Positions 16,213 to 32,011 of a DNA stretch of 36,050 bases are shown in pieces. Position 1 is the first letter of the stretch. Each line of letters starts with the position of its first letter. The translations under genes and the position numbers were made by a program. This DNA comes from a virus. The DNA is taken from positions 1 to 36,050 of the IMG/VR virus record IMGVR_UViG_3300043786_000856; one strand, written 5' to 3'. The notes under the pieces are model-generated. The model was not told the origin of the DNA. It saw only the letters and a program-made list of their open reading frames with translations, and ran no database searches.

Positions 16213-18039
16213 ATGGCCTTTGCCAACTCGAGCTATTCGGACATCCTCGCTTAACCAACGTGCTATAGATCACCTTCGGTGATCTTGTTGTATTTCTTCC
16301 GGTTCAAGGCCACCGGGAGATACTGAAGGTTCCAAGGAACATGAAGCCCGGTGACGGGGCGACCATCAATTTTTCCTTTCAGAGGAATGATGTGGTCAAC
16401 TTCGTGTCCCTCCGGGCATGCAGCGTAAATCTTGAGGATGTCATCAAGATCTACCCATGACGGGCATCGCTCCTTGATGTCATGCCAGCGGTTGTGCTTT
16501 CTGGCAGGGCAAAACGGATCGGACGCCCATTTCCGGCGACGCTCAGCGTTGAGTCTTTCCTTTTCGCGGTCGTACATGCGTTTTCTTTGAGCCGCGATAG
16601 CTTCTCTGTAGGCAGGATCGGTTGCGTACTTCTTACGCCTCCATGCGTTTTGAGCTTCTTGATATTTGCCAACATACAAATGCTTTCGAGATTTGTTGTC
16701 GGCAAGTGAGCAGGGCTTGCACAGGCGGCTGATGCTTGTCAGCTTCTTGTAAAACTCAGAACGATCCTTTTCTATCTGGCAAGCGGGACAGACTTTTCGT
16801 TGCTTTGGCTTCGGACCTTTCATTGCGACATTATAGCAACCAAGGCGAGTTTAAACAGGGTGAATTCGGTGAAAACCCAGACCGGGCAACGCCGAGCCAA
16901 GCCGCATATGTAGGCATACAGCCGAGGGATGCGGAAGGTGTAACGATCAGACTCCGAGCGAAAGCGGTAATGAGTCCACGAGCGCCCTGCCCCGCGCAAG
17001 CGGGTGATGACATGATCTGAGCTATGCAGGAATGCATAGAAGCACGGGATAAAGAGCCTGTGCGATAACACGACTGACGACGATTGAATCTCGTAGCCGA
17101 GAATTGGCCGACAACGTAACGAACAACAACGCACTCCTCTACAAGCTGCGCGAGCGCGGCAATGTGCGTCCCGTCAGCGGCGGCAGCGTGATCCTTGAGG
17201 AGATCATGTACACCGATGCCGCCACGACCAACGTCAACAGCTACAGCGGGTACGAGGCGCTGAACATTCAGCCCAACAGCCCGATCAGCGCCGCGCAGTT
17301 CAATCTGAAACAGTACGCAGCGGCGGTGACGATCAGCGGTCTGGAGTTGCTGCAGAACTCCGGCCGCGAACGCATGATCGACCTGATGGAAGCGCGGCTG
17401 AAAGTGGCCGAAGCGCAGCTGATGAACCGCATCGCCACCGACATCTACGGTGACGGCACGGGCAACGGCGGCAAGAACATCGACGGTCTGGCCGCGGCTG
17501 TCAGCACCAGCACGACCGGCACGTACGGTGGCATCTCGCGCAGCACCTGGTCGTTCTGGCAGAACCAGCAGTTCGACTTCACCACCGACGGTGGCGGCGC
17601 CGTGTCTGCGACCAACATCCAGAACTACCTCAACCGTGCGACCGCGCTGGCCATTCGTAATGCCGACGCACCCGACCTGATCGTGTTCGACAACGTGCTG
17701 TGGGGCTTCTTCACCAGCAGCATGCAGGCGATCCAGCGGGTCACGAACGAGAAGATGGCCGGGTTGGGCTTTGCCAGCATGAAGTACTACGGCGGCGGCG
17801 TCGCGGCCGACGTGGTGCTCGACGGCGGTCTGACCGGTGGCGACACGCACGTGCCCAGCACCACGGGCTTCCTGCTGAACACGAAGTACCTGAACTTCCG
17901 GCCGCACCGGGATCGCAACTTCGTGCCCATCGGCGGCGAGCGTCAGTCGGTCAACCAGGATGCCATCGTCAAGCTCATCGGCTGGGCGGGCAACCTCACC
18001 TGTTCTTCTCCGCGCCTGCAAGTGCGGATGAAGGACTAA
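16213..18039 (+). CDS. Major capsid protein, split by a group I intron
   Basis: Exon 1 is 16213-16251 (13 codons, starting MAFANSSYSDILA; AGGAG six bases upstream), exon 2 is 17077-18039. Joined, they give 333 residues reading ILA-TTIESRSRELADNVT across the junction, which restores the usual N-terminus of this coat family; features include GNVRPVSGGSVILEEIMY and SYSGYE. Without splicing, translation stops at the TAA right after Ala13. Splice rules fit group I introns: exon 1 ends in T, intron ends in G. Residues about 60-330 are the HK97-type coat body. Follows scaffold, precedes a decoration-like gene. Confidence 0.88.
16263..16823 (-). CDS. HNH homing endonuclease, antisense within the intron
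   Basis: 186 residues. Two CxxC pairs near the N-terminus (CPACQ at about 13-17, then CKPC at about 36-39) form a zinc-ribbon-like element; a long basic helical stretch (RRKKYATDPAYREAIAAQRK) follows; the C-terminus holds the HNH signature EVDHIIPLKG with HVPWNLQYLPVALNRKKYN. It should cut intronless capsid alleles to spread the intron. GC content is much lower than the phage. It is transcribed opposite to the intron and late operon, from its own extended -10 promoter. It fills the P1 loop almost exactly, its stop overlapping one stem arm and its promoter the other. Confidence 0.88.
   Translation of the reverse strand: MKGPKPKQRKVCPACQIEKDRSEFYKKLTSISRLCKPCSLADNKSRKHLYVGKYQEAQNAWRRKKYATDPAYREAIAAQRKRMYDREKERLNAERRRKWASDPFCPARKHNRWHDIKERCPSWVDLDDILKIYAACPEGHEVDHIIPLKGKIDGRPVTGLHVPWNLQYLPVALNRKKYNKITEGDL
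16830..16838 (-). promoter_or_regulatory. Extended -10 promoter of the HNH gene
   Basis: On the minus strand TGC-TATAAT (16838-16830), a perfect -10 with a TGn extension and no good -35. Six bases separate it from ATG 16823, so the first transcribed base should be the A of the start codon (leaderless). Confidence 0.7.
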
Positions 18040-31033: not shown

Positions 31034-32011
31034 CTAAATTGATCGGCCCGGGGCGACCTTGCGGCCCTTCACCAGCCGGTAGATTTCGGCGGTGGTCGTC
31101 TCGTCAGCATGGCCGGCGCGCTGGCTGGCCACGGTGAGGTCGGGTTCGTCGGTCGTTGCTTTTTTCCTGAGGTCGCGCAGCTGCCAGTCGGCGCCGACCT
31201 GGGCGCGTGCGGCGGCGAACGCATGCTCGAGGCGCCAGATGGTGACGCGCTGTCCGCGCTCGTCGGCCACGAGGAACAGGCTGGCAGGATCTCGAGCGGC
31301 GGCCGCCTCCAGGAATCGCTGCAGCGGGCCTTCCACGGCGATCCTGACGGCCGTGCCGGTCTTGGACTGCCGGAACCACAGGGCACCGTCGCGAACGTCG
31401 CTCAAGCGCGCTCTGAGCACGTCTGACGGGCGCTGCGCGGTCATCAGCATCAGATCCATGGCAGCGGTCACGTAGGCCGGCGCCACGTCGCGCAGGGCGC
31501 GCACCTCCTCGTCGGTCACATAGCGGCTGCGCTTGACCTCTGCGTTGCGCTCGATGCCGGTGGCCGGGTTCGGGGCGCTGGTGTAGTCCTGCGATCTGGC
31601 CCAGTTCCACAAGTGACTGAGCAGCGCGATCTCGCGGTTGCCGGCGGTGCGGGCCGACCGGCGGTCAAGGTATTGTCTGACGTGCACCGGCCGGATCGCC
31701 TGCAGCGGCAGGTGCCCGAAGGCGCCGACCAGCGTCTTGAGCTGCGCCGTCTGATCCTTCTGCGTTTTCGCGGCCTTGCGCGGCAACACCACGCGCGCAT
31801 AGTGGCCGGCCACGACCGAGAACGTCGTCCCGGCGCTGCCCTGTCCCTCCAGTTCCGCCCAGCGGCGCAGTGCATGCGCCTTGTCGCTGCCCAGCGGGAT
31901 CTTGGTCGACCCGGCTTGGTAGTAGAACAGCGTGCGCTCGCCTGACCGGCGGGCGGTCATGTGCGGCGGCAGGTCAGAAAAGGTGGTTTTCGGGCGGCCC
32001 ATCTCCCTCAT
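31034..32011 (-). CDS. int: Tyrosine-recombinase integrase
   Basis: 325 residues. Residues about 62-150 form a SAM-like core-binding domain (KTQKDQTAQLKTLVGAFGHL; VRQYLDRRSARTAGNREIAL). The catalytic domain holds Arg194 (TAQRPSD), Lys217 (SKTG), RDLR at 279-282 with the box II Arg, His301 (RAGHA) and nucleophile Tyr311 (EIYRL). Box II His is replaced by Arg279, a known variation. The N-terminal GRPKTTFSDLPPHMTARRSG is a pattern of phage integrases with a small DNA-binding start. It recombines attP at 30925-30969 with a host tRNA-Thr gene. Last gene of the PL operon; start overlaps the DUF4224-like stop. Confidence 0.92.
   Translation of the reverse strand: MREMGRPKTTFSDLPPHMTARRSGERTLFYYQAGSTKIPLGSDKAHALRRWAELEGQGSAGTTFSVVAGHYARVVLPRKAAKTQKDQTAQLKTLVGAFGHLPLQAIRPVHVRQYLDRRSARTAGNREIALLSHLWNWARSQDYTSAPNPATGIERNAEVKRSRYVTDEEVRALRDVAPAYVTAAMDLMLMTAQRPSDVLRARLSDVRDGALWFRQSKTGTAVRIAVEGPLQRFLEAAAARDPASLFLVADERGQRVTIWRLEHAFAAARAQVGADWQLRDLRKKATTDEPDLTVASQRAGHADETTTAEIYRLVKGRKVAPGRSI

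Follow-up and report, generated by a model that had tools for sequence, protein, structure and literature searches.

The major head protein of the virus analysed here is encoded in two pieces on the plus strand, and the sequence between them carries an HNH endonuclease gene on the opposite strand. The question raised by this locus is whether these are separate genes or whether a self-splicing intron has been inserted into the capsid gene, with a nuclease gene read against it. The window, i.e. the whole stretch of DNA that was analysed, is a 36,050-base virus contig containing structural genes, including those for the head and portal proteins, as well as an integrase gene (31034–32011, minus strand), and the phage is therefore probably temperate. 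The head, portal, and integrase genes are all present as full-length frames.

The two pieces of the head protein gene are located at 16213–16251 (exon 1, 13 codons, MAFANSSYSDILA) and 17077–18039 (exon 2, assigned to the PHROG 9953 major head protein with an E value of 2.5e-96), and an in-frame TAA lies directly after exon 1, inside the intervening segment. Joining position 16251 to position 17077 generates a single unbroken frame, in which MAFANSSYSDILA is followed by TTIESRSRELADN... (TTIESRSRELADNVTNNNALL...). This N-terminus is uninterrupted in ~80 relatives from IMG/VR, which the joined frame fits, and the mismatch with the coat N-terminus that would count against splicing was absent. In addition, two contigs (L002 and L003) are ~98% identical to the window in both flanks and lack exactly bases 16252–17076. 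The insert is thus an 825-bp plus-strand segment located after codon 13 of the gene; exon 1 ends in U and the insert ends in G (...CGACTG), and the terminal U of exon 1 forms a U.G pair in P1.

A search with the group I model (Rfam RF00028) matched 16795–17039 with 40.7 bits (E 1e-8), although this score is below the gathering score of 50; the core appeared only in this local search, and no match was obtained when the whole window was searched against Rfam at the gathering threshold. Using a profile of HNH proteins, nine further contigs (L129–L137) were identified in which a complete intron occupies exactly this codon boundary (the labels L082, L100, and L102 refer to the contigs L129, L135, and L133, respectively, and L138 is cut off). 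These and the window make up the ten-intron set. All 10 complete introns lie in the same gene at the same codon boundary and have an HNH gene on the antisense strand within the loop of P1, indicating that they form a real family rather than a chance reading of the sequence. Seven of them exceed the Rfam gathering cut-off, the highest core scores being those of L131 and L134. No relatives of the core or of the HNH protein were found in genome collections or plasmids.

When the 10 introns were aligned from the guide sequence to the 3′ splice site, the P3, P4, P5, P6, P7, and P9 helices and a further 3′ hairpin were recognized, with covariation in eight helices, P3 and P7 among them. In the core, 97.1% of the cells are paired, and compensation on both sides is seen in 25 pairs and 76 cells, compared with means of 14.5 pairs and 22.8 cells in shuffled alignments (none of 500 shuffles was as high as the core); sliding the partners by one to three columns left only 4–9 compensated cells. 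P3 is formed by 16856–16862 and 16983–16989 (98.6% of cells paired, two pairs compensated). P7 consists of GATCA (16945–16949) and TGATC (17013–17017) in the window and of GACTA and TAGTC in all nine relatives, a difference involving two compensated pairs, and the G-C pair of the guanosine site is the same in the window and the relatives. P10 appeared plausible by eye in L130 (TCGTAG/CTACGA), L132, L137, L131, and L136, and was not evident by eye in the window (16834–16843 and 17077–17084). The window intron is among the weaker of the 10, with its Rfam score below gathering, its altered but compensated P7, and a short arm in the extension of P1. Judged from its sequence, 16252–17076 is a group I intron, and its structure and the existence of empty alleles suggest that it is spliced.

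All of the positions given in the original prediction were correct, including the P1 pairing of the exon 1 end CTCGCT (16246–16251) with the internal guide sequence GGCGAG (16844–16849), which comprises six positions ending in the U.G pair at the splice site. P1 covaries at its outer pair, being CTCGCT/GGCGAG in the window and ATCGCT/GGCGAT in the nine relatives. Every intron-bearing allele (10 of 10) matches its own guide, whereas a fitting hexamer is present in 29 of 80 empty alleles (p 1e-4). The helix had also been predicted to be extended by pairing of GCTATA (16262–16267) with TATAGC (16832–16837). In the window alone, this extension is no better than that of shuffled arms (fraction 0.37–0.47), but the proposal holds for the family: the extension beats shuffles in eight of the nine relatives (fraction at most 0.04; combined p 9e-10) and reaches at least 14 consecutive pairs in L129 and L133. 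The P1 extension is therefore to be regarded as real for the family, and the window appears to keep it only partly, in an eroded form. Across the family, the 3′ arm hardly varies, whereas the 5′ arm has drifted and shows G.U pairs and mismatches; this pattern suggests constraint on the 3′ arm by the likely promoter described below, with the pairing following.

The HNH gene (16263–16823, minus strand) encodes 186 amino acids from ATG to TAG. As predicted, its frame lies between the two P1 arms on the strand opposite to the intron, an arrangement found in all 10 introns; its stop codon (16263–16265) is inside the 5′ arm of the extension, and a −10 box, TATAAT (16830–16835, minus strand), overlaps the 3′ arm. 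In nine of the 10 introns, no more than 16 bases separate the stop codon from the 5′ splice site, and in three the stop codon overlaps the splice site. The sequence TTAA at the 5′ splice site (16251–16254) can provide a stop on both strands, as the in-frame UAA just after exon 1 on the capsid strand and, on the opposite strand, as the HNH stop codon in L129, L132, and L134. In L133 (3300046543_000062), the HNH frame crosses the 5′ splice site and runs antisense through all of exon 1 and the capsid start codon, with its stop at intron position −44.

At its N-terminus, the HNH protein has a CxxC...CxxC zinc ribbon, which is followed by a long helix and, at the C-terminus, by an HNH motif that reads EVDHIIPL...GLHVPWNLQYL...NRKK; EVDHI, N165, N174, and the CxxC pairs are invariant. 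It was matched by a PHROG endonuclease VII family (E 4e-10), and no significant match in Pfam and no match in a PDB sequence search were obtained. An AlphaFold2 model built from 34 sequences had a mean pLDDT of 84.6 and replaced an earlier four-sequence model (pLDDT 57). In structural comparisons, many of the best matches were HNH proteins, but the matches were weak (Foldseek E values of 1 or higher): Hpy99I aligned over the zinc ribbon (Z 5.5, rmsd 2.1, 41 residues), and the C-terminus of the model aligned weakly to several HNH domains. These model-based matches are consistent with an HNH nuclease and are not decisive.

The HNH protein is 55–62% identical to its nine antisense relatives. Among the 10 genes, the first, second, and third codon positions show 0.31, 0.24, and 0.60 differences per site, respectively, and the excess at the third position indicates purifying selection on the antisense frame. 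The central claim of the original prediction, that the P1 loop of a capsid group I intron is filled by an HNH gene in antisense, has the backing of near-identical empty alleles, of ten contigs with the same layout, of covariation in both the core and P1, and of selection on the coding of the antisense frame. When 34 relatives were placed in a tree, the antisense proteins of the capsid introns formed one clade (100/100) with a single label change. The nearest HNH proteins outside this clade are at most ~40% identical over the aligned length, and a recognized group I core was found nearby at only one (L164) of the 20 outside-clade loci that were checked. The G+C content is 50% in the HNH gene (16263–16823), 56% in the intron core, 63% in exon 2, and 65% in the window, and the low value of the HNH gene relative to its flanks is consistent with a foreign origin.

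An extended −10 element, TGCTATAAT, is predicted for the HNH gene at 16830–16838 on the minus strand, with the ATG six bases further on. On the minus strand of the 3′ arm, TATAAT is present in all 10 introns and TGCTATAAT in nine. The spacing between TATAAT and the ATG is exactly six bases in the window, L130, L131, L132, L136, and L137, and is seven bases in L129, nine in L134, and 27 in L133 and L135. Given a −10 element ending at −7, the six-base spacing predicts a message that starts at its own AUG, i.e. a leaderless HNH message, in six introns. Extended −10 promoters need no −35 element. No consensus −35 box, and hence no sigma-70 promoter with such a box, was found for the HNH gene, so that the likely promoter in the P1-extension stem is predicted from the conserved extended −10 element. 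A terminator-like hairpin at 16267–16285 on the plus strand was no better than shuffles. It follows from the layout, as originally noted, that transcripts of the capsid strand would carry antisense RNA to the HNH message. One short stretch might even be used three times on two strands, as an arm of the splice-site helix, as a promoter of the extended −10 type, and as the sequence leading into a leaderless nuclease message, an idea that we put forward tentatively, as somewhat less probable than its opposite.

The exons around the insert also differ from those of empty alleles. Between −7 and +14, and perhaps up to +28 (16245–17104), there are eight or nine silent differences; relative to L002, they are located at −7, −4, −1, +6, +9, +12, +13, +14, and +28 around the junction, and apart from these the window is the same as L002 between about −225 and +216. 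Given a background of 1.8%, the occurrence of eight differences within 21 bp has p 1.7e-9, and all are silent; one of them involves a serine codon, which is TCT in the window and AGT in the empty allele. The intron-bearing L130 shares the base of the window at all eight comparable sites, and L129 does so at seven of nine. The sequence of the empty allele, CTGGCC, would pair poorly with the guide of the window, whereas CTCGCT fits. A second pair of alleles, L133 with the intron and L014 and L038 without it, was found in one metagenome with ~90–93% flank identity. The exon tract is what homing with short co-conversion would leave, and its exon 1 part may in some measure also reflect selection for a P1 that fits.

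Taken as a whole, the locus is very probably a mobile group I intron with an antisense HNH homing gene in its P1 loop, residing in the head gene of a temperate phage. In the capsid pre-mRNA, CUCGCU of exon 1 would pair with the guide GGCGAG to form P1, and the intron would splice itself out to leave an uninterrupted coat mRNA, as its structure and the empty alleles suggest. The HNH gene in the P1 loop would be read from the other strand, using its own extended −10 element overlapping the 3′ arm of the extension, a use to which the conservation of this element points. The nuclease would then cut intron-less capsid alleles, and repair would copy in the intron together with the HNH gene and a short stretch of flanking exon, which would also restore a fitting P1; cutting and repair copying of this kind would account for the exon tract. 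Because of the antisense placement, ribosomes translating the nuclease would never travel along the intron RNA, and the nuclease would be free of waiting for late transcription. Translation of a sense-oriented intron nuclease can hinder intron folding and splicing (Gibb and Edgell, I-TevI, as cited in a review of bacterial group I introns, PMC3984707), and we infer that the antisense strand benefits the intron by easing this conflict between translation and splicing.

Other explanations differ mainly in what the HNH gene does and in whether the copy in the window still works. The weak features of the window intron, namely an Rfam score below gathering, an unusual P7, a missing P10, and an eroded P1 extension, may be read as signs of decay, in which case this copy would splice poorly and the phage or prophage would be defective. 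The changes in P7 are compensated, however; no damage is seen in the HNH frame, in either exon, or in the P1 match with its U.G pair, and the head, portal, and integrase frames are full length, making such decay unlikely. It is also conceivable that the intron splices but that the HNH gene has become a passenger that is transmitted with it and has ceased to drive homing here. Slow shared inheritance would produce the similar levels of divergence seen for the HNH proteins (55–62% identity) and the capsid proteins (59–67% identity). A mere passenger would not be expected to show purifying selection in all 10 introns, strict linkage of the HNH clade to one site, or presence and absence among near-identical alleles together with an exon tract, and we consider this explanation quite improbable.

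A mainly regulatory role, with capsid splicing or late expression controlled by the antisense transcript or by polymerase collision and with cutting of lesser importance, would draw on the complementarity, given by the layout, between the message over the P1 loop and unspliced capsid RNA, and on the likely promoter within the P1 extension. Against this, the predicted leaderless message would not reach the guide sequence or the core, conservation is seen at the protein level, and no evidence of regulation was found, so that such a role is very improbable. That there is no intron at all, and that a free-standing HNH gene with its own promoter merely lies between two separate genes, would agree with the HNH relatives outside the clade, most of which are located away from a recognized group I core. 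This is almost certainly wrong: joining the two pieces restores the frame exactly, near-identical empty alleles exist, and P1 and the P3–P9 helices covary in the 10 introns.

With the mobile intron as the preferred explanation, its closest counterpart is found in mycobacteriophage LittleE (JF937101, genes 13/14), for which splicing of a capsid intron was shown by the protein N-terminus and RT-PCR (PMC3706429). Like the present family, LittleE contains an intron of ~820 bp of the group I type in the major capsid gene of a temperate phage, with an HNH gene on the opposite strand. Unlike in the present family, this HNH gene is 3′ of the core (core L128:1059–1262) and not in P1, it belongs to another family (phrog_5046) with no similarity, and the capsid and the insertion site are also different. 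The bottom-strand gene of LittleE is called LAGLIDADG-like in the text of that paper and HNH in its figure legend, GenBank, and PHROGs. In the S1506 nuclear rDNA introns of Porphyra spiralis, a nuclease gene is located in P1 on the complementary strand, and a P1 extension is present (PMC2585584), but the nuclease is a degenerate His-Cys box protein in algal rRNA genes, with no phage or capsid gene involved. The S956-2 intron of Didymium iridis also carries a nuclease gene antisense to the group I ribozyme (PMC3679873), but in eukaryotic nuclear rDNA, and the likeness considered here is that of antisense orientation. The original description of the antisense P1 insertion as unusual is thus fair, with the qualification that precedents exist in LittleE and red-algal rDNA.

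The HNH genes in the introns of SPO1/SP82, Pf-WMP3, and PhiPA3 are sense-oriented. As in the present family, an essential gene of these phages is interrupted by a group I intron that carries an HNH gene, although the nucleases and introns are different (I-PfoP3I of Pf-WMP3, PMC3428280; gp210 of PhiPA3, PMC11620839). The intron HNH protein gp210 is used in phage competition and damages co-infecting phages (PMC11620839), and by analogy it is a possibility that HNH proteins of the present family do likewise. The nuclease genes of T4 are oriented as their surroundings, with the exception of the free-standing segD (PMC2988022), and a term search of the review of bacterial group I introns (PMC3984707) returned no mention of antisense nuclease genes.

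A scan with the 3′ hairpin of the intron identified 24 contigs with related cores in various genes, and the nuclease genes recognized by eye on them are sense-oriented, except in the present capsid-intron family. Introns in the large terminase genes of Drulisvirus (L092–L095) share ~50 bp of the core with 88–90% identity; they differ in the host gene, and in ZX22 the annotated HNH gene is in the sense direction, downstream of the matched core stretch. In L092–L095 (Drulisvirus and other records), each half of the split terminase gene is annotated as a gene of its own, for a terminase or a maturase. The intron of L164 (2425–3270; Rfam 74 bits) has an HNH gene of the same superfamily (~32% identity) in its P1 loop (GAGGAT/GTCCTC), near the start of a head-protein-like gene, but this HNH gene is sense-oriented and both the insertion site and the head-protein-like gene are others. 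L117, L123, and L127 (IMG/VR 3300033067_000278, 3300037508_000472, and 3300035666_000555) contain a related group I intron at a different site of a related head-protein gene, about a dozen codons further downstream; in this intron, a GIY-YIG-like gene, recognized by eye, lies in the sense direction immediately ahead of P7′. L109 was considered as a second antisense case and rejected, because its antisense endonuclease gene appears to be free-standing, upstream of the gene and outside the intron. This gene is located ~1.5 kb or less upstream of the 3′ end of the intron and encodes zinc-ribbon-like repeats and the motif NSWNSMKQRC...YEPGNVRWA. Within the open-licence literature, the present introns are the first case found in phages of an antisense nuclease gene in P1, here occurring as a family and with a promoter that is likely to lie in the P1 stem.

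LittleE and the present family are unrelated, so the layout in which a phage capsid intron carries its nuclease gene in antisense is a recurring one, and annotation can easily misread it as three separate genes. If the triple use of one stretch is true, a prophage or early phage would make a capsid-targeting nuclease without late transcription, splicing would be undisturbed by ribosomes, and co-infecting relatives without the intron would possibly be harmed. By keeping the nuclease gene antisense in the loop of P1 and, as is likely, its promoter in the stem, this phage family seems to have arrived at a natural solution of the conflict between translation and intron folding, and the ten natural variants and the near-identical empty alleles provide material with which this solution can be tested.
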